A stretch of DNA of 45,776 bases from a virus (IMGVR_UViG_3300027743_000041:1-45776), one strand, 5' to 3'. Counted from the first letter of the stretch, positions 9,596-37,751 are shown. The notes: generated from the sequence alone by a model not told the origin. Program-made: numbers and translations.

Positions 9596-11197
9596 ATGCC
9601 AGTTAACGTTCATAGCCAGAAGGAAGATCAAAGTAATTATGATGCTAGTACTGTAATTAAATTAGAAGTAGAACCAGCAAGTTCAGCTCAAATTTATTTT
9701 CTCAATTCCACTAAAAGAAACATTCTCTTTAACTCAGGTTGGGGCGCGGGCAAAACATTTATTGCATGTTTTAAATTGATATTACTTTTAGCCAAATTCC
9801 CAAAATCAAGAGCGGTTATTGGAAGACAAAAGTACGTTGATCTAAATAAAACAACTAAAGAGACATTCTTTCAAGTATGTCCACCTCAGTTATATTCAGA
9901 AAAGTATGGTGGTGCAAGAGCAGATGGAAGAGGGTATCTCAGACTTATAAATGGATCTGAAGTCTTTTTCATGCATTTTGATAATCTAGACCTAAGATCC
10001 ATCAAATCTCTAGAAATAAACTTCCTCCTTCTAGATCAAGCAGAAGAAATAGCAGAATCAGTCTATTTAGCTTTAGATGCACGTCTAGGAAGAAAGTCAG
10101 ATGCGATTGTTCCAGAAGATTTAATAAAAGAATATGAAGCCGCCGGTCGAACTTGGCCGATAAATGAATTAACCAAAAGACCTCTCGTTCCAGTTTATTC
10201 TTTCCTGTTGATTAATCCTCCAGATGAAGGCGAATTACACTATTTAATCCAGAGATTCCATCCAAAGTCAGAAGAATGGCAAGAGAAATGGAAAGATACT
10301 AATGATTATATCTGGTCAAGTTCTAGAGATAATAAAGCCCTTCCAAAAGAAAATCTAGAGAATATGTTAACACGCGATCCGAAATGGGTCGCTAGATATG
10401 TAGATGGGGAAATTGGACAAGGTGAAGGGGCTATACATTATATCTATGATGATTCAATTGTTGAAGTTAGTCCAATTTGGCTAAAGAATTTAATAAAGAA
10501 AGCAAGTTTATGCCGCGTGTTAGATTATGGATCATCTGAACCAACATGTTGTCTCTGGTTTGCATCTTTTAAGGGCTTTCACTACTGCTATAGAGAATAT
10601 TATGTGGCGGATACAATCATTTCTCAGCACCGTGAAGCTATAAATGACTTATCATATGAAGAATATTATACATTTAACTTAGCAGATCCGGCGATTTTTA
10701 GTAAAACTAAAGAGAAATATGGTGGATTTTGGACTGTAGCAGATGAATTTATGGATGCAAGTCTAGATTCACCATCTTTAGTCTGGATGCCTGCAGATAA
10801 TAATGAATTTGCTACAAGAAATAGAATTAATGAACTCCTGAAGTGGGATGAGCATGGAATTAATCCAATAACAGGCAAAAAAGGAACACCGCATTTATTT
10901 TTTATTAGAAGAAATAAAGATAATCCGCAAGGTTGTTATCATGTTCTTCGAGAAACTAAATCTCAGAAGAAAAAGCTCCTGGATACAGTTAATGGTAGAC
11001 CTATCTATTGTGATGATCGAGATGATGGCGTATCTGATCATAGTTATGATTGTCTACGTTACTATTGTGCATCACATCTTCAAGGTAGAAAGGATCTCAT
11101 AAAGCGTCCAAAAGGGAATAGCTTTTATGGAATGCGAGATAGATTAAAAGCGCTTAGACAAAGTGGCTATCTTGATAGATATGGAATTATTCAATAA
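9596..11197 (+). CDS. terL: Terminase large subunit (ATPase and nuclease)
   Basis: The 533-residue length is usual for phage large terminases, which cut and pump DNA into the prohead through the portal. The Walker A motif GWGAGKT is at residues 48-54 and the Walker B motif is FLLLDQAEE (143-151, Asp147 with Glu150 catalytic). The C-terminal RNase H-like nuclease begins at RVLDYGSSEP near residue 305 and ends with the DDGVSDHSYDCLRYY set near 480. A homing endonuclease gene follows immediately, a common location for such elements. Confidence 0.93.
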   Translation: MPVNVHSQKEDQSNYDASTVIKLEVEPASSAQIYFLNSTKRNILFNSGWGAGKTFIACFKLILLLAKFPKSRAVIGRQKYVDLNKTTKETFFQVCPPQLYSEKYGGARADGRGYLRLINGSEVFFMHFDNLDLRSIKSLEINFLLLDQAEEIAESVYLALDARLGRKSDAIVPEDLIKEYEAAGRTWPINELTKRPLVPVYSFLLINPPDEGELHYLIQRFHPKSEEWQEKWKDTNDYIWSSSRDNKALPKENLENMLTRDPKWVARYVDGEIGQGEGAIHYIYDDSIVEVSPIWLKNLIKKASLCRVLDYGSSEPTCCLWFASFKGFHYCYREYYVADTIISQHREAINDLSYEEYYTFNLADPAIFSKTKEKYGGFWTVADEFMDASLDSPSLVWMPADNNEFATRNRINELLKWDEHGINPITGKKGTPHLFFIRRNKDNPQGCYHVLRETKSQKKKLLDTVNGRPIYCDDRDDGVSDHSYDCLRYYCASHLQGRKDLIKRPKGNSFYGMRDRLKALRQSGYLDRYGIIQ

Positions 11198-11212: not shown

Positions 11213-11241
11213 TTGACACCTTGGTCATTGTGTGGTATCCT
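11213..11241 (+). promoter_or_regulatory. Promoter for the first HNH-AP2 gene, -10 inside a hairpin
   Basis: TTGACA (11213-11218), a 17-base spacer and TATCCT (11236-11241) form a sigma70-like promoter with a perfect -35 and a TGG extended -10 element (11233-11235). The -10 lies in the left arm of the hairpin at 11233-11256, so a transcript starting near 11248 would lack that arm. Confidence 0.65.
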
Positions 11242-11256
11242 GAGAGGGGGATACCA
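11233..11256 (+). promoter_or_regulatory. Hairpin around the ribosome site of the first HNH-AP2 gene
   Basis: TGGTATCC (11233-11240) pairs perfectly with GGATACCA (11249-11256). The loop TGAGAGGG and first bases of the right arm hold the only purine-rich SD candidate (AGGGGG, 11245-11250) before the ATG at 11263. Only read-through mRNA from terL would contain both arms. Confidence 0.6.
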
Positions 11257-11262
11257 TTCAAT

Positions 11263-11754
11263 ATGACCAAATTTTGGTTAACGATTCCGCGAACTTTTGG
11301 TGTTGCGGCAGAAATACTAGTAGATGATGAAGATTATCCAAGAATTCAACCACTTAATTGGTGGATAGTAAGTACAGCAACTGGTAAAAGAATTTTAGGT
11401 TATTATGGAGAATCTAAAATTCAATTAGCAAATTTTATATTAAAGTTACCTTGGGAGGCCATAATTGATCATAAAGATCGAGATTATAAAAATAATCAAA
11501 AGAGTAATTTAAGAATATCAACTAAAGAACAAAATAGTTATAATAGAAGTATTGCTTCTAATAATACTTCTGGCTATAAAGGTGTTAGTCTAGATAAAAG
11601 ATATAATAGATGGGCTGCTAGCATTAAAATGGATGGTAAAAGAAAAGGTTTAGGCTATTATGATACAGCAAAAGAAGCAGCCAAAGCGTATGACAAAGCA
11701 GCAGAAAAGTATTTCGGTGAATTTGCCTGTTTAAATTTTCCAAAGGAGAAATAA
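11263..11754 (+). CDS. HNH homing endonuclease with AP2 domain, copy 1
   Basis: I chose ATG 11263 over an upstream TTG because of the SD position, giving 163 residues. The HNH core is IIDHKDRDYKNNQKSNLR, with the usual DH and NN..NLR elements. The C-terminal AP2-type DNA-binding domain runs from SGYKGVSLDKRYNRW to FACLNFP. Free-standing HNH-AP2 genes are mobile elements that cut cognate alleles and copy themselves in. This one sits between terL and the next virion gene. It is related to the genes at 17233 and 32187, all ending in YGEFAxLNFP. Confidence 0.9.
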   Translation: MTKFWLTIPRTFGVAAEILVDDEDYPRIQPLNWWIVSTATGKRILGYYGESKIQLANFILKLPWEAIIDHKDRDYKNNQKSNLRISTKEQNSYNRSIASNNTSGYKGVSLDKRYNRWAASIKMDGKRKGLGYYDTAKEAAKAYDKAAEKYFGEFACLNFPKEK

Positions 11755-11757
11755 AAA

Positions 11758-12246
11758 ATGCCTGTAGGTCATTTCACGAATGAACTAGGAAATGTAACTG
11801 AAAGAGATTACCCCACTTCAGTTCTGACTCAAACTGGTAAAAGAGTATTGGCTAGAGCACAAAAAGGTTCCTATGAATCTTTAGTAATTGCTTTAGTTAT
11901 TTATAAAGTTGTAAAAAATTTACCATTCCCAAAAAATACGCAAGAAAGAGATGAACAAATAGATCTTCAGCGGACAATTGCACAGGCAATTAGAAATAGG
12001 CTAGATGACCCTAGAGCTAGATTTGAAAAATCAATTTCCGAAATTGCTAAATCTGTTGGATTAGATTGGCCGGAGCCCGATGATCCAAGATGGATTACTG
12101 CACTAGAAAATTCAAATGGAACAGCAGGCAATTCAATAAAAGCAAGAGATGCTAATTCAATTTTAGGTCATGGACTACATCTAGGACCGAAAGATGCAAT
12201 TCTAGGTGAAGTAGAGATTGGTGATTTTAAGTTTCAAATGAGTTAA
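11758..12246 (+). CDS. Hypothetical late protein, 162 aa
   Basis: The start follows an AAAGGAG ribosome site located in the end of the HNH gene. The product has a helical N-terminal half with an IALVIYKVVKNLPFP stretch and a helix-rich centre (RTIAQAIRNRLDD). The C-terminus is Gly-rich. It lies between terL and portal genes, where small head-related proteins are often found. No family was recognised. Confidence 0.65.
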   Translation: MPVGHFTNELGNVTERDYPTSVLTQTGKRVLARAQKGSYESLVIALVIYKVVKNLPFPKNTQERDEQIDLQRTIAQAIRNRLDDPRARFEKSISEIAKSVGLDWPEPDDPRWITALENSNGTAGNSIKARDANSILGHGLHLGPKDAILGEVEIGDFKFQMS

Positions 12247-12247
12247 T

Positions 12248-12511
12248 ATGGATAACGAAGAATATTATAGAACTGCTAATGCATTAGATTTTAATGCTAA
12301 AGAAAAAGCTGCGGCAAATATGGCAAAATTAGCTTATGATGCTCAAGCTGGCACACTTAATCCAAGTTCTAAAGAAGAAATAGGAGAGAGAATAGAACGA
12401 ATATTAAGAAATGCAAAAAGAGAAGTTCAACAATGTGAAGAGCTTCTTGAACTTTTGAAGAGAAATCCAGACACTCAACGGATTTTAGATTTGTTGAAAC
12501 TATATCTTTAA
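12248..12511 (+). CDS. Hypothetical late protein, 87 aa, helical
   Basis: The ORF begins two bases after the previous stop, implying coupling. The sequence is almost wholly helical and charged, with an amphipathic coil over the last 45 residues (EIGERIERILRNAKREVQQCEELLELLKR). Position among head genes suggests a virion or assembly role. No family was recognised. Confidence 0.6.
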   Translation: MDNEEYYRTANALDFNAKEKAAANMAKLAYDAQAGTLNPSSKEEIGERIERILRNAKREVQQCEELLELLKRNPDTQRILDLLKLYL

Positions 12512-12560
12512 TGATTTAGAAAATGCCGGTTAAACTCTAACCCAGAAAAGAAAGAAATAA

Positions 12561-12854
12561 ATGCCAAACGATTATCAAAACATGTTCAATTTGCTAAGAA
12601 GTCAATATTCTCAACCGGCGGGCGGGCAAGTTAATTCGGGTCCGTATGGTTATATCGATCAAGGTTTTGATCAAGAAGAAGAACTAAGACGGAGAAGAAG
12701 ACAAGCTTTAATGCAAAATATGTTAGGACAACAAGATAATGGAATGGTAAGTGATATATTTAGTGCAATTGGAGGTGGAGTGGGTCCAGGTGGAGGAATA
12801 TTAGGTGGTATAGTTCCAAATGTACTTGCTGCAATCTTTAAGAAGAGACAATAA
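12561..12854 (+). CDS. Small late protein, 97 aa, Gly-rich C-terminus
   Basis: The product starts with a polar segment (NMFNLLRSQYSQPAGGQ), then an arginine cluster (EEELRRRRRQALM). It ends with a glycine-rich hydrophobic segment containing GGGVGPGGGILGG and a basic end KKRQ. The stop overlaps the portal start as TAATG. The tail could insert in a membrane or pack in the virion. Function unknown. Confidence 0.6.
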   Translation: MPNDYQNMFNLLRSQYSQPAGGQVNSGPYGYIDQGFDQEEELRRRRRQALMQNMLGQQDNGMVSDIFSAIGGGVGPGGGILGGIVPNVLAAIFKKRQ

Positions 12855-14707
12855 TGAATAAAAAGCAAAAAGAAGAGAGTTATGCCAAACATTGGCTAGA
12901 ACGTATAAGAAAAGCATGCGAGTACTATGATCAGTGGGAATCAAAGTATAAATGTAGGATTTTAGAGAAATATTTAGATGGAAGTGTAAGTACAGCGGCG
13001 GGCGGAACTGAATTAAGTTATTATTTAAATCTTTTTTTTAGTTCAACAAAAGTTAAATCTCCGAGCCTTTGCTTTAACAGACCAAGTTACTCATTAACAC
13101 CCAAGCCGTGGAAGTTAGATTTTAATCCTGAAGTAGCGATGACTACTGCAAGACTGAAAGAAGATACATTAAACAGTTTTATTCAAGAAAGTTCTCTGAA
13201 TTTTGCCGAAGAAATAAAGATGTGCCTTTTGGATTCCTGGAGCTATTTTGGTGTAATGGAAGTTGGTTATGCAGCTAATTGGATACAAAATCCAAACGCG
13301 GGCAAACCAATTCTAAAGGCAGATTATTTCGATGAAGAAAGTGGAGATGATCCAGGTGATACACTGAAGGAACCAGATGAGATTCCTGAAAAAGAATATG
13401 TTTACTTTAAACGAATACCTGCTCATAGGTTTAGGGTTGGTGGTTCTGATTCGCATAATACAGAAAGAAATAACTGGGTTGGATACTACGAGTTTGTTAG
13501 AACTGATGATCTCCTTGCAAATAAAAAGTATTTAGATAATTTAGATGAGAAAGACTGGCCGTCAGGAAGATCAGATGATTATTATGCAGACTTTGCGGGG
13601 CCGGAAGATGAGAAAAACTTTACATCAAACGGTGATTATACTAAAATCTGGAAGATATGGGACATTCGGGCTAAGGTAAAGTGCATAATATTAGCCACGC
13701 CGGAGAAATGTATTTACAAAGAACCTTTCAAAAGATTGCCTATATTTGGACTCCGATTTGATTATAAACGCACGGGTTGGTATCCAGTTCCTGTTACATT
13801 TAATTGGAAAAGTCCACAAGATGAAATAAATGAATCAAGAAATCAAATGCGAAACCACAGGCGTAGAGTTAGACAAATGTGGCAAGCAATGGAACAAACC
13901 GTCGATCCAGATGAAATAGATAAATTCGTACATGGCCCAGATGCAACAGTTATCTTCGTTAAAAGAGATCAAGCAATTCAACCAATTAATAACGCACCTT
14001 TGGATTCGAGTATTGTTCAAAGTTTACAAGTTAGCACAGATGATTTCGACAAAATTGCGGGAACATCTAATCCACAAAGAGGAGTTTCTGATAGAACAAC
14101 AGCAACAGAAGCAACAACAATTGAGAATCGTGCGAGGGTCAGAGAAGATCTGGAAAGAGAAGTAGTTGCAGAGTGGCTGTGTAATATTGGAAGAGAAGTT
14201 CTATTAACTATAATTGAGAAATTTACTGAACCTTTCTGGATTAAACTTAATAGAGATATGGGTGAGCCAGGTGAAGAAGTTCAGGATTTACAACAGAGAT
14301 ATCAATTAGTTCATTCAGCAATGCTCGAAGATTCGACGGATTTTGAATTAGAAGCGTCCGTTACATCATTATCGCCAGTTACGAATGAAGTGGAAAAGAA
14401 AAAGTTCCTGGAATTCATGAGTATTCTCCAGAATTTCCCAATTATGAGTTTACATCCAACGATAATTAGAGAAGCAGCATATCGCTGTGATTATCGGAAT
14501 GAACAAGTAATTCGGGCAATGCAACAAATGGCTCAGCTATCTATGATGGCAAAAGCTAATGAAGGTCAGCAGAATCTTGCAAATCAAGAAGGTCAACCAA
14601 AAGAAAGTCAAGGAGAGCAAAGTAATTATGCACAAGCGAAAGTAGCTCAAATGACTCCGCCGCAACAAGAAGAGATTAGGCAACAGATGGCGAATCAAGT
14701 TCAATAA
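12854..14707 (+). CDS. Portal protein
   Basis: At 617 residues in the slot between terL and scaffold/capsid, this is the expected portal, the dodecameric ring through which DNA enters and leaves the head. The sequence has a typical mixed core with YFKRIPAHRFRVGG, a segment PVTFNWKSPQDEINESRNQMRNHRRR, and a downstream helix with RTTATEATTIENRARVREDL. The C-terminal 80 residues are Gln-rich and probably form the barrel/crown region. The start overlaps the previous stop by one base. Confidence 0.85.
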   Translation: MNKKQKEESYAKHWLERIRKACEYYDQWESKYKCRILEKYLDGSVSTAAGGTELSYYLNLFFSSTKVKSPSLCFNRPSYSLTPKPWKLDFNPEVAMTTARLKEDTLNSFIQESSLNFAEEIKMCLLDSWSYFGVMEVGYAANWIQNPNAGKPILKADYFDEESGDDPGDTLKEPDEIPEKEYVYFKRIPAHRFRVGGSDSHNTERNNWVGYYEFVRTDDLLANKKYLDNLDEKDWPSGRSDDYYADFAGPEDEKNFTSNGDYTKIWKIWDIRAKVKCIILATPEKCIYKEPFKRLPIFGLRFDYKRTGWYPVPVTFNWKSPQDEINESRNQMRNHRRRVRQMWQAMEQTVDPDEIDKFVHGPDATVIFVKRDQAIQPINNAPLDSSIVQSLQVSTDDFDKIAGTSNPQRGVSDRTTATEATTIENRARVREDLEREVVAEWLCNIGREVLLTIIEKFTEPFWIKLNRDMGEPGEEVQDLQQRYQLVHSAMLEDSTDFELEASVTSLSPVTNEVEKKKFLEFMSILQNFPIMSLHPTIIREAAYRCDYRNEQVIRAMQQMAQLSMMAKANEGQQNLANQEGQPKESQGEQSNYAQAKVAQMTPPQQEEIRQQMANQVQ

Positions 14708-14720
14708 AGGAGAAAGATTT

Positions 14721-15041
14721 ATGGCAGAATATGATAGGAATAAAGATATTCAAAGCAGAGATACTGGAGTGAAAGATCGAGAAAAGAAGAAAGAGAAAAA
14801 AGAAGAAAAAGAAGCACCGGCTTCAGAAAGATTACCACAACAAGATGATGATCTGAAGAAGATTGCAGAAAAACTTCTCAAAGCAATAGAGAAATTGGAA
14901 GAAGCTCAAAAGGAAGAAGAGGAAGAAATTGATGAAATAGAGAAGATTCCTCTGAGAGAAAAGAGAATTGCAAGACTAATTGATCTTCAGACAAACTTTA
15001 ATGAAATTAACAGGCGATTGAACTTGTTGATTGCGAAATAA
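14721..15041 (+). CDS. Charged coiled-coil protein, 106 aa
   Basis: The gene has an AAAGGAG ribosome site before ATG. About half of the residues are Lys, Glu, Asp or Arg, and residues 40-105 form a long coiled coil. It sits between portal and scaffold, so an assembly or internal head role is plausible. No family was recognised. Confidence 0.6.
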   Translation: MAEYDRNKDIQSRDTGVKDREKKKEKKEEKEAPASERLPQQDDDLKKIAEKLLKAIEKLEEAQKEEEEEIDEIEKIPLREKRIARLIDLQTNFNEINRRLNLLIAK

Positions 15042-15050
15042 TCGAGCGAA

Positions 15051-15242
15051 ATGGCTAATATTAATATGGGGAAGAATCAGTCCGGGGCTAAGATTTCAGC
15101 TAAGTCAATACTTCGGAGTAAACTATTAGATTTACTGAAGTCCAAATCTCTCTCTGTTTCATCTACTAACCAACAGAAAAAGACTGAGACTTCCCCACCA
15201 ACTAATACTGGAAATAAAAAGGAAAAGGATATTAAGAAATGA
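15051..15242 (+). CDS. Small basic protein, 63 aa
   Basis: The ORF begins nine bases after the previous stop and its own end overlaps the scaffold start. It is rich in Lys, Ser and Asn and looks disordered in its second half. No family was recognised; compact head-gene packing is the main support. Confidence 0.5.
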   Translation: MANINMGKNQSGAKISAKSILRSKLLDLLKSKSLSVSSTNQQKKTETSPPTNTGNKKEKDIKK

Positions 15243-16066
15243 GTGATACTAATACATCACTGCGAAATGCCGTAGAATCGGCGGCTAAAGACCAAAATAT
15301 TACTGAAGAGCAAGATCATAAAGTTGAGTCTAACGGAAATGAAACAGCTAAAAAAGATGAAAAGACTGAAACTGAAGAACAGCCAAATTCTGAAGTTGAA
15401 GAATCTATTGATCCAGAAATTGAAGAAGCTGTAAACTTTTATCGGGCGCTGAAAGATCCGAATCAACAACTAAATATCATTAGTGAATTAGCACGGCGGG
15501 CTGGAGTATTAAAGGCAAATGAATCAATTACTCAGAAAGAGGGCGCCTCGGCTAAGAATTTTAATGATCTATTAGGCGAGATTCTTGGTGATGAATATCC
15601 AGATCTCAAAGATAAGCTAGGGAAAGTATTTCAGGCTTATGATAAAGAACATGATCAGAAATTGAATAGCGTGCGTGCTGAAATAGAATATGAAAGAGCG
15701 CAAAAGGCCGCTAGTGATTTCGAGGTTGAGTTCTCAAGTTTTATCAAAACGAATAATATTACTGAAGCAGACGCGGCCAAAATGATTAAAGAAATTGAAG
15801 CATTACCGCCTGCTGTTGGTAAAAACGGAAAACGTATCTCACTGACTGATTATCTTGGAAAGATCCATAGACTAGTAAATATGGATAAACAGAACACGAA
15901 TAAAGAAGTAGAACGCGCAAAAAAGATTCAACAGAATCTTAAAGAAAGATCCACGAATCTTTCCTCAGATATCAGTGAAGACAGGATAAAAACTGGATCT
16001 AAACTGCCGTCAATTAGAGAATCAATCCGGGCTGCATCTGAAGGCGTTAAATTTGCAGATGATTAG
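15239..16066 (+). CDS. Scaffold protein (putative)
   Basis: The 275-residue product lies directly before the major capsid gene. It has an acidic, disordered N-terminus (about 1-60), a helical acidic centre and a long coiled coil (about 130-245), with a basic C-terminal region. That composition and position are typical of internal scaffolds that guide prohead assembly and then leave. Identification is by position and composition, not by a signature motif. Confidence 0.75.
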   Translation: MSDTNTSLRNAVESAAKDQNITEEQDHKVESNGNETAKKDEKTETEEQPNSEVEESIDPEIEEAVNFYRALKDPNQQLNIISELARRAGVLKANESITQKEGASAKNFNDLLGEILGDEYPDLKDKLGKVFQAYDKEHDQKLNSVRAEIEYERAQKAASDFEVEFSSFIKTNNITEADAAKMIKEIEALPPAVGKNGKRISLTDYLGKIHRLVNMDKQNTNKEVERAKKIQQNLKERSTNLSSDISEDRIKTGSKLPSIRESIRAASEGVKFADD

Positions 16067-16079
16067 GAGAAATTAAAAG

Positions 16080-17168
16080 ATGGCAACATATGGCGGTGGA
16101 GGTGGTACAACTCCAGCTACAAGTACTTTTAACTATGATGCATTAGTAAGTACTTCGCTTGCAAATTATCGAAAGACTTTAGTCGATAATATATCAAAGA
16201 CCAATCCGCTTTTTCATGAACTCAAAAAGAAAGATCTTTGGGAATCAGTTGATGGCGGATTGTACATTGCAGAAGATTTGATGTATGCTGTCGGCGGACT
16301 AGAACCATATGATGGTTATGATGAATTGCCTTTAGTCCCAACTGATGGCGTTACTCAAATGCAGGTGGAATGGAGACAATTAGCGACTCCGATTGTTATT
16401 TCTGAAAAGGAAAGAAAGCAGAATAAACAACGAATCGTTAGTCTTCTTGAATCGCGGATTAAAATTGCAGAAATTGGTATGCAAGAGAATTTCACCAAAC
16501 ATTTGCTGCAAGGTAGTCTAGTAGGTTCTGGTGATGATATTCGCGAACCATACAATAATCCTGCAAATGGTGCAAATTCGATAGATCCATTGGGCCGCTG
16601 GGTTATGTATGATCCGACTCAATCTTATACAATTGGAAATATTAACCAGGCGACCAATAGTTGGTGGAGAAATAGAACAAAAACTTCGGCTGCAACAACA
16701 GGACAAGGTTTACTAGCCGAGTTTATGAATCTATATAATGGCTGTAGCAAAGGTCCAGGTGGACCACCAGATTTGATTTGGACAGATCAGATTACTTGGG
16801 AATTAGTCCATACTGCATATATGGACAAATACCGAGCTACTTCCACTGATAATAATTATCCTTTTCCAAATTTCCGATTCTGGAATGCACTAATTGTTTG
16901 GGATGAAGATATTCCAGATGTTGCTGCAAATGGTGGAAAAGGTGCAATGACTGCGGAGACTACGAAAGGTACAGCTTATTTTCTAAATACTCAATTCTTC
17001 AAAATTAAGTATGAATCAGAGACTAACTTTGTAGCAACAGAATTCCAAAAGCCAATAAATCAAGATGTAAAAGGTAAACACATTCTCTGGATGGGGAACA
17101 CCTTGGCGAATAATAGGCGAAAGCAAGGTGTCTTAGGCAACATCGCCAGAACTCTAACATTCTCCTAG
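16080..17168 (+). CDS. Major capsid protein (HK97-fold type, putative)
   Basis: The 362-residue product follows scaffold with an AGGAG ribosome site. An N-terminal Gly-rich stretch is followed by a helix (YRKTLVDNISKTNPLFHEL) and a loop rich in Gly, Tyr and Asp (VGGLEPYDGYDELPLVPTDG). A long spine-type helix follows (KERKQNKQRIVSLLESRIKI). These features match the family of phage capsid proteins with an E-loop and spine helix. It would form the icosahedral shell. A homing endonuclease gene has inserted right after it. Confidence 0.85.
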   Translation: MATYGGGGGTTPATSTFNYDALVSTSLANYRKTLVDNISKTNPLFHELKKKDLWESVDGGLYIAEDLMYAVGGLEPYDGYDELPLVPTDGVTQMQVEWRQLATPIVISEKERKQNKQRIVSLLESRIKIAEIGMQENFTKHLLQGSLVGSGDDIREPYNNPANGANSIDPLGRWVMYDPTQSYTIGNINQATNSWWRNRTKTSAATTGQGLLAEFMNLYNGCSKGPGGPPDLIWTDQITWELVHTAYMDKYRATSTDNNYPFPNFRFWNALIVWDEDIPDVAANGGKGAMTAETTKGTAYFLNTQFFKIKYESETNFVATEFQKPINQDVKGKHILWMGNTLANNRRKQGVLGNIARTLTFS

Positions 17169-17175
17169 GCTTAGA

Positions 17176-17189
17176 GTTCCACGTGGAAC
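17176..17189 (+). repeat. Perfect 14-base palindrome after the capsid gene
   Basis: GTTCCACGTGGAAC is fully self-complementary and abuts the hairpin that precedes the second HNH-AP2 gene. It may help end or stabilise the capsid transcript, or bind a dimeric protein. Confidence 0.6.
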
Positions 17190-17226
17190 GGCCTTTTGTG
17201 CTATACTCTTTGAGGCACAGGAGGCC
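17190..17226 (+). promoter_or_regulatory. SD-sequestering hairpin with internal extended -10, second HNH-AP2 gene
   Basis: GGCCTTTTGTGC (17190-17201) pairs over 12 positions (two G-U) with GCACAGGAGGCC (17215-17226). The right arm contains the full SD AGGAGG (17219-17224), eight bases before ATG 17233, so the folded RNA would hide it. The stem end and loop hold TGCTATACT (17199-17207), an extended -10 element. A transcript beginning near 17214 would lack the left arm and leave the SD free. No good -35 is visible. Confidence 0.65.
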
Positions 17227-17232
17227 CCATCC

Positions 17233-17793
17233 ATGTTACAATTTAAAATATGGAATAAAGAGAAAGAGCAATACGAAATGGTTCTAATTGATGATCAAGA
17301 TTGGCCGAAAATGCAACATATTGTTTGGCATCTTGATAAGTCTGGAGCAGTTAGAACAGCTATTTATATTTCTCCAGGAAAAAGAAAGAATGTGTTTTTG
17401 CACAGATTTATTCTAGGTCTGGAGAAAGATGATAAAGTTGATGTTGATCATATTGATGGAAATAGATTAAATAATCAAAGATCTAATCTGAGAATATGTG
17501 AGCACCATCAGAATAGAGCTAACTCAAAGAAACCTATAAGCAATAAATCTGGTTATAAAGGAGTTACTAAAGTTATTGTTCGAGGTAATATTGAAAAAAT
17601 AGTTTATATGGCGAGTGTAACTTTTAAGAATGAGAGAGTATATCAAGAATATTTTGATAATGTTAAACATGCAGCCAGAGCATATGATATTGCCGCACTA
17701 CAATATTATGGAGAATTTGCCAATTTAAATTTTCCAGCAAGCGATTATATAAACATAGATCCATCTGATGTGGATCTAGAGCAGTTTAACTGA
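17233..17793 (+). CDS. HNH homing endonuclease with AP2 domain, copy 2
   Basis: The 186-residue protein has the classic HNH block VDHIDGNRLNNQRSNLR near residues 75-91. The AP2-type domain runs from SGYKGVTKVIVRGN to FANLNFP. The N-terminal part (about 1-70) is the usual strand-rich lead-in. It sits between the capsid gene and the next head gene. It would cut an allele lacking the insertion, most likely near the capsid gene, and be copied by repair. Its ribosome site is hidden in a stem. Confidence 0.92.
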   Translation: MLQFKIWNKEKEQYEMVLIDDQDWPKMQHIVWHLDKSGAVRTAIYISPGKRKNVFLHRFILGLEKDDKVDVDHIDGNRLNNQRSNLRICEHHQNRANSKKPISNKSGYKGVTKVIVRGNIEKIVYMASVTFKNERVYQEYFDNVKHAARAYDIAALQYYGEFANLNFPASDYINIDPSDVDLEQFN

Positions 17794-35079: not shown

Positions 35080-35289
35080 TTATCTTTCTTTTACAGTTTT
35101 CTGATCTTCTAATTTTGTTAGCCGGTCCTCTAGAGATTTAAACTTTACATCTAGATAGCGATATAGATCTTCAAATCTTTTATCTATAGCATTTTTTAGA
35201 TCAGTTATTCTCTGGTTATTGTATATATTTCCTATAGTTATAGCTAAAACTACAATTAGAGCTGGACCCCAATTGTTTATCTGATTCAT
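35080..35289 (-). CDS. Small membrane-anchored coiled-coil protein, 69 aa (family of four)
   Basis: Residues 7-26 form one membrane helix (WGPALIVVLAITIGNIY), followed by NNQRITDLKN and a coiled coil to the end. It is a paralogue of the protein at 37904, which shares INNWGPA and YNNQRITDL, and similar in plan to those at 41823 and 44894. The start overlaps the polymerase stop as TAATG. The coil probably faces the cytoplasm and could anchor a replication complex to the membrane. Confidence 0.7.
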   Translation of the reverse strand: MNQINNWGPALIVVLAITIGNIYNNQRITDLKNAIDKRFEDLYRYLDVKFKSLEDRLTKLEDQKTVKER

Positions 35290-37751
35290 TATGCAACTTT
35301 CTCCTCTTTATATTTTAATTCTATCATATCATTCCAATTATTCTCAGAATATTCCATTTCAACTGGAATCTTAAGTTTTCTTTCTCTCTGAATCGAACAA
35401 GTTTCAAAACTAATTTCTCTAGCAGCGGCGCGCTGAACTAATTCTGCAAATTCATACCTTCGGGAGATTGGAATTTCATACATTAATCCATCATGAGCCT
35501 CAAATAGATGTAATGCCCAAGGTGCAAGTTGATCGAGATCTAATGCAATTGTTTTAAAGTGATCTGAAACCGTTCCTTGTGGAAGATAGGAGTAAGCCTC
35601 TTTATAGACATCATGTTTGTTATGTTTACTAAGTGAGAAGAAATCTCTCCTTCTACCGAATGGATTTATCAACGGCTGTTTATTGTGGATTAACTTTTGG
35701 ATTGTCAAATGAAATACGTTCTGGACATTCGGCACGTTTGAATGAAATTTCTTCATAACATCATTGCAAAATGCGACAGATTTATAAACTTGTACACTTA
35801 ATCCTGCTCCACTTTGACCTAAATTACCTGCATGTCTCGCCATCTTTCCAATATCGTATTCTCTTGATCCTTTCTGAATCCGATCTACTGGTTTTTGATA
35901 AATCCAACTGGCGGTTAATTTATGAATATTGTTTCCTGCTTCGATATAATCTAAAGTTGTATTATCATCTGAGAGAATACAAACTACTCTACCTTCAGCA
36001 TTGGCGCCGTCGAAAGCAAAAAATTCATAACCATCACTCGGAATGAATATCTCTCGAATATCTGTTCCAAATCTTTCGCCTTCAAATTCAAACCCATGCT
36101 TTGGAATTTTCTGAAATGCAGTACCAAAACAGATTTGTTTTACCTTTCCATTATCCAGAGCAAAATACCAACCCGTAGATTGTGCTGTACTAGTTCTACC
36201 TGTTGTTGTTCCAGCTATGTTATATGATGTTCTCATTCGAGCATCATTATGATATGGCGTTTCAAGAATATTTAAAGTTGATTCTATCTTTCGGCATAAT
36301 ATTATTTGCTTCAGAACTCGTTGAACTATCTCATCATTGATTTCGTTGAGATACATATTAACGATTGTATCTTCATCTGTCGAGTAGATCTCATTCCCGT
36401 TTGGTGTGAAGTGAGTGTGAATTGGACAATTCAGAAAATCATATATGAAAACGCCTACTTGTTTAGGCGATCTAACGTTAAGTTCTTTCCCATATACATG
36501 TTTTATCTCAATTGCATTCTTTTCCAGTAATGATTCATATTTATCAATTAACTGCGCGCGCCGTAGTTCATCTATTCTAATTCCGCGTTCCTCAACTTTC
36601 TTGTAATGGAAGAATAACGGCTGGACGAAATTGAAATAGAACTTCTTTAGATTCAATTCCTCTAATTCTTGTTGTTGCGCTTGCCATACTTTCCAACATA
36701 CTACTGAGTCTTTCGCATTATAGATTAACATGCGGTCGAAATCGTGTAACTTTGGATCGTAATCTTTCCCTTCATCTTTGTAATATGCATACTCCGTATA
36801 AACGCTGGCTAGAAAGTCAAGTCCTTTTGGTAATTCAGGATAAATTACATTAGCGGCCAGCATTGTATCGCCCACGATATTATTTATTTGAAAGCCTAAT
36901 CTCGCGAGCACTGTCCAATCATACTTTATATTCTGATTTACTTTTGGTATTCCGCTTCTCAGTATTTCTGCATACTTTCTGATTATACAGGCATTTTCCA
37001 TTGCTGATAATTCTTTTGAAAAAAGAGGAAAACTAACAGCTTCATGTCCATCTGTACAAAGTGATGCACAAGTGGGAAAATTATATTGAGTTTCTATGTC
37101 AGTAACTAAATAGGCTCCGTGCCTTGCTCTTTTCCAATATTCAATGAGTGCTTCTGTGGTACGTGCTATCCATAGGACTCCTGGTTCTGTAATCTCTCCT
37201 GTATTACCAATATGCTTGATTGCGCGTCCAATGTCAAGGGTTGTGTATGATCGAGTGATCGGCTGTACGAATATATCTCTAGGATGCAGAATTGGGATAA
37301 CTCTGATATGTTTGTTTAGTCCGATATGACTCCGAATATTTGGAGCTAACGGCAAAATCGAACCTCTAAATTTATTTATATTCTTCTCTCCTGTTAAGTA
37401 ATTCAGAGCTAATTCACCAACGGCGATTATAACATTTGGCCCTATTAGTCGGATTTCTTCATTAAGAACTTGATCCCAATTAGCTTCGGCGCGCGCCTGT
37501 TCGAGAGTTTCTCTTGACTTTTTCTTATTTTTTGAATTGTAGCCAACGAGAGGGCATTTGATATATGTAGTCTTATAACATCTTGAACTCGAATACTTAT
37601 TTGACTTGAAAAATGAATCAATTAACTCACCACTTGGGCCGGCACATGTTCTTTTAGCTTTACATTCATCTCCAGTAGGATAATCAGTTATAATCATTAT
37701 TGGAGATACTTCTGGCCCATGCCCTCTGACTATTTCATCTTTATCGATCAT
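35289..37751 (-). CDS. DNA polymerase, family A, with N-terminal uracil-DNA glycosylase-like domain
   Basis: The 820-residue protein has an N-terminal UDG-like domain (about 1-185; GPSGELID at 38-45, ILHPRDIF near 154-161). A 3'-5' exonuclease follows: TDIET with Asp218/Glu220, NQNIKYD with Asp278, and YNAKD with Asp348. The polymerase domain shows motif A AFDGANAEGR (Asp581), motif B GKMARHAGNLG (Lys636, His640) and motif C AHDG (Asp754). The residue corresponding to E. coli F762 is Leu644, and the usual Glu of motif C is Gly755. The same UDG-plus-PolA fusion occurs in SPO1. It is the phage replicase. Confidence 0.92.
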   Translation of the reverse strand: MIDKDEIVRGHGPEVSPIMIITDYPTGDECKAKRTCAGPSGELIDSFFKSNKYSSSRCYKTTYIKCPLVGYNSKNKKKSRETLEQARAEANWDQVLNEEIRLIGPNVIIAVGELALNYLTGEKNINKFRGSILPLAPNIRSHIGLNKHIRVIPILHPRDIFVQPITRSYTTLDIGRAIKHIGNTGEITEPGVLWIARTTEALIEYWKRARHGAYLVTDIETQYNFPTCASLCTDGHEAVSFPLFSKELSAMENACIIRKYAEILRSGIPKVNQNIKYDWTVLARLGFQINNIVGDTMLAANVIYPELPKGLDFLASVYTEYAYYKDEGKDYDPKLHDFDRMLIYNAKDSVVCWKVWQAQQQELEELNLKKFYFNFVQPLFFHYKKVEERGIRIDELRRAQLIDKYESLLEKNAIEIKHVYGKELNVRSPKQVGVFIYDFLNCPIHTHFTPNGNEIYSTDEDTIVNMYLNEINDEIVQRVLKQIILCRKIESTLNILETPYHNDARMRTSYNIAGTTTGRTSTAQSTGWYFALDNGKVKQICFGTAFQKIPKHGFEFEGERFGTDIREIFIPSDGYEFFAFDGANAEGRVVCILSDDNTTLDYIEAGNNIHKLTASWIYQKPVDRIQKGSREYDIGKMARHAGNLGQSGAGLSVQVYKSVAFCNDVMKKFHSNVPNVQNVFHLTIQKLIHNKQPLINPFGRRRDFFSLSKHNKHDVYKEAYSYLPQGTVSDHFKTIALDLDQLAPWALHLFEAHDGLMYEIPISRRYEFAELVQRAAAREISFETCSIQRERKLKIPVEMEYSENNWNDMIELKYKEEKVA

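Follow-up and report, generated by a model that had tools for sequence, protein, structure and literature searches.

Nucleases that keep their own start sites hidden in RNA are known from T4-type phages, as I-TevI, I-TevII, I-TevIII, SegB and Aeh1 MobE, in which a hairpin conceals the RBS, and transcripts from middle or late promoters, made without the left arm, escape this concealment (PMC2988022, PMC3014915); I-TevI in addition autorepresses at its own operator (PMC2988022). The non-mobile T4 lysozyme gene e behaves in a similar manner, its start site being hidden on long mRNA while late promoters located by the RBS give well-translated transcripts lacking the 5' structure (PMC3014915), and the soc leader belongs with it. 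Further afield, the Staphylococcus Kayvirus nuclease I-KsaI, encoded within the lysK intron, is reported in an RNA-seq study to possess an early promoter of its own (p72), the holin-lysin unit around it otherwise depending on a late promoter (PMC7698491). In this article, I will discuss two phage leaders that invite comparison with these systems.

The window analysed here, by which I mean the whole 45,776-base virus record, belongs to a tailed phage whose profile searches returned terL (phrog_2), a major head protein (phrog_9953), a family A DNA polymerase, a helicase and a primase. The polymerase gene (35289-37751, minus strand) begins with a uracil-DNA-glycosylase domain, followed by 3'-5' exonuclease and PolA domains. 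Near-identity searches of an annotated phage collection gave no match to the window, and protein searches with the capsid and terL reached distant phages only. Since no RNA polymerase or sigma gene appeared among the window proteins scanned, many of them small and without assignment, transcription is likely carried out by the host RNA polymerase. Two genes, HNH1 behind terL and HNH2 behind the capsid gene (Table 1), are of the homing-endonuclease type (PF13392 and phrog_99 in both, PF00847 in HNH1) and are probably free-standing homing endonucleases. A preliminary description of this DNA had called both HNH-AP2; this is correct for HNH1, which has HNH_3 and AP2 domains, whereas Pfam at E 1e-3 reports HNH_3 alone for HNH2, the C-terminus of which can nevertheless be aligned with the AP2 part of HNH1. 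The end of HNH1 also supplies AAAGGAG (11740-11760), a likely SD for the next gene (ATG 11758), so that the insert would leave its downstream neighbour translated.

Table 1. Positions of the genes and leader elements in the window
Feature	Position	Strand	Basis and remarks
Terminase large subunit gene (terL)	9596..11197	+	upstream of HNH1; phrog_2, E 3e-18
HNH1 -35 element TTGACA	11213..11218	+	sequence match
HNH1 outer helix, 5' strand	11221..11230	+	fold; partner 11259-11270, start codon included
HNH1 inner hairpin, left arm	11232..11241	+	fold
HNH1 extended -10 TGGTATCCT	11233..11241	+	TG 11233-11234, TATCCT 11236-11241
HNH1 SD candidate GAGAGGGGG	11242..11250	+	sequence; loop and right arm
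HNH1 inner hairpin, right arm	11248..11257	+	fold
HNH1, HNH-AP2 nuclease gene	11263..11754	+	PF13392, PF00847; phrog_99, E 3e-41; no counterpart at site in L007
Major capsid gene	16080..17168	+	upstream of HNH2; phrog_9953, E 6e-36
HNH2 hairpin, left arm	17190..17202	+	fold, layout scan
HNH2 extended -10 TGCTATACT	17199..17207	+	sequence match; no good -35
HNH2 hairpin, right arm	17214..17226	+	fold, layout scan; predicted transcript start about 17214
HNH2 SD AGGAGG	17219..17224	+	in right arm, buried (fold)
HNH2, HNH nuclease gene	17233..17793	+	PF13392; phrog_99, E 8e-32; 41% identical L007 gene in same place

The HNH1 leader folds into two stacked helices (-27.1 kcal/mol, z -4.05). The inner one holds the eight perfect pairs that had been drawn around the SD candidate at 11233-11256, TGGTATCC (11233-11240) with GGATACCA (11249-11256), and comprises 10 bp as folded; the outer one, missed at that time, links the -35/-10 spacer with the start codon, so that the ATG is paired too. 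Embedded in this structure is the promoter that had also been recognized, TTGACA, a 17-nt spacer and a TG-extended TATCCT, which ranks third among the sigma70-like sites of the whole window by my score, with its -10 in the inner left arm, while the inner right arm contains part of the G-run that forms the SD candidate. From this sequence, transcription would be predicted to start at 11246-11250, at or inside the G-run, and the short mRNA would carry a leader of 13-17 nt with a minimal SD, only GGG(GG)A. The HNH2 hairpin has 12 pairs plus a terminal U-G (z -5.86), and the fold bears out both the extent first proposed (17190-17226) with AGGAGG in its right arm and the position of the extended -10 across the end of the left arm and the loop; its -35 is poor, TCCACG being the best candidate. 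In a short fold the HNH2 start codon takes part in outer pairing, and in a longer fold this competes with an upstream palindrome; an outer helix over this codon is thus uncertain. That palindrome, GTTCCACGTGGAAC, is perfect, occupies 17176-17189 within the -35 region, and is the only match in the window to GTTYCACGTGRAAC, even allowing up to two mismatches; it resembles the parS core GTTTCACGTGAAAC.

The preliminary description had proposed comparing SD access with and without the left arm, and in both genes the computed cost of opening SD and start falls when that arm is removed, from 18.6 to 4.6 kcal/mol in HNH1 and from 17.5 to 9.9 kcal/mol in HNH2, the start codon of which, in the predicted short RNA, remains able to pair with sequence downstream. 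I would suggest, with a probability of roughly 0.72, that these are self-insulating leaders, silent on the mRNA of their neighbours and translated from their own short mRNA. Read-through mRNA from terL or the capsid gene would carry both arms, fold, and hide SD and start codon, and little nuclease would come from these abundant structural transcripts; a host-type RNA polymerase would start at the promoter, with its -10 located in the left arm or the loop, and the resulting transcript, beginning 6-7 nt after the -10 and lacking the left arm, would leave the start site open. The nuclease would then be made only upon firing of its own promoter, probably early or else constantly and in small amounts, and would be kept off late read-through mRNA. 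The original proposal that read-through mRNA is silent and short mRNA translated is supported insofar as computed opening energies can speak to it.

Compared with the T4-type endonucleases, the logic is the same: in silico, hairpins hide the RBS on read-through mRNA, and the promoter matches, strong for HNH1 and moderate for HNH2, would yield transcripts without the left arm. The start sites of e and soc are likewise hidden on long mRNA, although those genes are not mobile and use a T4 late promoter. What differs is the promoter, the phage and perhaps the timing. The window leaders carry sigma70-like -35/-10 elements and not the T4 late promoter (TATAAATA, gp55 sigma), they precede HNH-AP2 genes in an unrelated phage, and the structural-gene mRNA would be the silent one, whereas the T4 genes use middle or late promoters and are switched on late. 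The preliminary description had carried over this late-on timing, which is doubtful because a host-sigma promoter need not be late; ksaI, the only case with RNA-seq, is reported to have an early promoter in a late-driven unit (PMC7698491). Expression that is early or constant, with no translation from late mRNA, is no less likely than the T4 schedule. A literature search, with subscription papers mostly outside its reach, found no description of hairpin gates with host-sigma promoters.

How easily could such an arrangement arise by chance? Every gene start was rated by a layout script for a stem in contact with the SD or start codon, combined with a promoter from which transcription would begin beyond the left arm, and HNH1 (22.4) and HNH2 (20.2) stood well apart from the next best gene of the window (9.4). 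Because the window and two relatives served to tune the script, its family counts are descriptive. Scores of at least 18 were reached by five of 225 HNH-AP2 leaders from viral and bacterial contigs, namely HNH1, HNH2, L007, L036 and L062, of which L036 leaves its SD exposed and L062 has no SD; generality of the layout among HNH-AP2 genes must accordingly be rejected, about 220 of the 225 leaders being without it. Of 1363 other genes only two scored as high, a glycosyltransferase-like gene with a low promoter score and, at 30.8, L026:6823-7251, a hit not used in tuning, which proved to be an unrelated small HNH nuclease of the PacI/endonuclease VII-like kind, whose TTGACA promoter is enclosed by a 21-bp stem. 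Accessibility was assessed separately after removal of everything before the predicted start, with cut-offs set at 6 for the promoter score and 6 kcal/mol for the change in opening cost; these were reached by 43% of PacI-like leaders, against 3.7% of scorable HNH-AP2 leaders (n=135) and 1.3% of controls (n=832), and control genes equalling HNH1 or HNH2 in both promoter score and opening change numbered 0/832 and 1/832, respectively.

These numbers bear on the possibility that the hairpins merely block translation or stabilise read-through mRNA, the promoter-like sites being fortuitous and the nucleases nearly silent. Promoter-like matches in the region are not commoner than in shuffled sequence (37 versus 46.2), HNH2 lacks a good -35, and the SD of the HNH1 short mRNA is weak, all of which suit this explanation; yet the joint hairpin-plus-promoter score of HNH1 or HNH2 was never reached when either leader was shuffled by dinucleotides (0 of 3000), TTGACA and TGCTAAACT are kept in the nearest relative, TATAAT is invariant in another HNH family (42/42, in a set chosen by TATAATGG), and the ksaI promoter is reported active (PMC7698491). 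I consider fortuitous promoters unlikely.

The nearest relative found, L007, has a capsid 90% identical to that of the window and offers a natural comparison. Behind its terL there is neither an HNH gene nor such a hairpin, and behind its capsid gene lies a diverged HNH gene 41% identical to HNH2, a pattern of presence and absence between phages with such similar capsids that fits mobile genes. The L007 leader reads TTGACA ... CTACCTTC TGTGCTAAACT GGAGGTAG GAGGTAG TACCTTG, with CTACCTTC and GGAGGTAG as the arms of a hairpin (z -3.25) and TGCTAAACT in the loop; the layout is that of HNH2 with different arm sequences, an outer helix (CAAGG / CCTTG) covers the TTG start, and removal of the left arm lowers the opening cost from 8.6 to 3.5 kcal/mol. 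This leader also contains the stretch CCTTYTGTGCTAWACT, which the HNH2 leader of the window fits too. In a distant relative (L089:9610-10104), an unrelated HNH-like gene follows a capsid-adjacent gene, and the region 3' of the capsid may attract HNH-like genes.

The L007 terL also bears on the idea that terL and the capsid gene use the hairpins to terminate transcription or to have their mRNA processed by RNase. In favour of this idea, each hairpin comes after the stop codon of a gene whose late expression is probably high; against it, no such hairpin follows the terL of L007. No U-tract follows either hairpin, the terminator scan includes neither of them and reports only the separate palindrome at 17176-17189, and the Rfam search gave no match; both the terminator and the Rfam readings were rejected, and I regard this explanation as very improbable.

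An argument for selected pairing comes from the PacI-like family to which the L026 gene belongs, in other words from a cousin HNH family and not from the HNH1 and HNH2 leaders themselves. These genes often follow ssb, and one relative of the L026 gene, in L242, matches the phrog_2340 endonuclease. I collected 74 distinct leaders, most of which have TATAAT or a near form, and aligned the 42 that hold TATAATGG. Two nested helices of 9 and 7 pairs are formed with 97.0% of cells paired, dropping to 33-43% in slid registers, and RNAalifold recovers the same helices with no structure supplied; double changes occur in 9 of the 16 pairs (66 double-change cells against 16.4 in shuffles, 0/500 as high), and when the arms of 41 leaders were re-matched helix length fell from 7.05 to 5.28, with 0/1000 as long as the true pairing. 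TATAAT sits between the helices in every leader so chosen, and the predicted start, 6-7 nt past it, lies inside the left arm; a clear -35 is absent from these 42 leaders. On the protein tree, where few branches are well supported, pair states change 6-18 times per pair, and the number of independent changes is uncertain. Codons 1-4 form part of the outer helix, which is therefore shaped by coding constraint as well as by pairing. Compensatory changes of the kind that the preliminary description proposed to look for are found in this family, and L007 keeps the layout with other arms.

The strand on which pairing is selected matters, since inverted repeats over a -10 are also what one would expect of a DNA operator at which the nuclease or a phage repressor binds and, as in I-TevI (PMC2988022), represses its own gene. 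The overlap of the repeats with the -10, the perfect palindrome in the HNH2 -35 region and a repeat in L036 that surrounds a -10 without covering the SD all speak for such an operator. Relatives, however, preserve the pairing with arms of different sequence, and the 42 leaders contain 105 G-U but only 4 A-C cells, so that pairing is selected in the sense RNA, and the right arms are positioned on SD and start codon. An operator in place of the RNA gate is therefore quite unlikely, although one could coexist with it. Folding, shuffles, controls, the nearest relative and the covariation in an unrelated HNH family together give good support to a hairpin gate that encloses a sigma70-type promoter. 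Some ssb-linked HNH leaders (L285, L309 and L250 among them) show a second palindrome, CCRTTTTAATTAAAAYGGG, over the ssb end and the -35 region upstream of TATAAT, and in Escherichia phage Alux-21 (L254:1400-1935) a PacI-like HNH gene lies antisense between tail genes, its leader having its own TTGTAA-17-TACACT and a hairpin, ACTATCCCCC / GGGGGTAGT, over the SD.

The ksaI gene of Staphylococcus phage 515A1 provides a third type of nuclease. It is intron-encoded and of another HNH architecture, unlike the window genes, but shares with HNH1 a TTGACA-17 promoter (TTGACA-17-TATACT) inside two stacked helices whose arms pair with SD and ATG, and removal of the left arm lowers its opening cost from 15.9 to 2.3 kcal/mol. 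A promoter annotation in phage ISP coincides exactly with these 29 bases; the hairpin was seen here from sequence, and no description of it was found in the literature searched. I would give even odds that a host-sigma promoter in a two-helix RNA gate is a general element of phage HNH mobile genes, occurring in at least three HNH types (HNH-AP2, ssb-linked PacI/endonuclease VII-like and I-KsaI), with the nuclease, contrary to what is seen in T4, made early and silenced on late read-through mRNA. If this is true, an RNA gate with an internal promoter would be a recurrent solution for mobile nucleases and not a T4 peculiarity, portable into any operon because it requires no more than the host polymerase, and its signature of an invariant -10 with covarying arms could be used to find such genes along with their start sites.

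A few further leaders deserve mention. L062 and L136, high among the HNH-AP2 scores, were set aside, the former for its missing SD and the latter for a weak promoter, and in the leaders of Sf6 gene 26, Skarpretter, KsaII and I-MsaI the layout is not clearly present. L036:3920-3973 has TTGACA-17-TATGAT inside an inverted repeat, TTGTTATA/TATAACAA, which stops immediately short of the SD, an arrangement reminiscent either of an operator or of seg43 in Aeromonas phage 25. In the HNH-AP2 leader at L080:3870-3940, an inner hairpin, followed by a T-run, is flanked by CTCCAA and the SD TTGGAG, which pair with each other.
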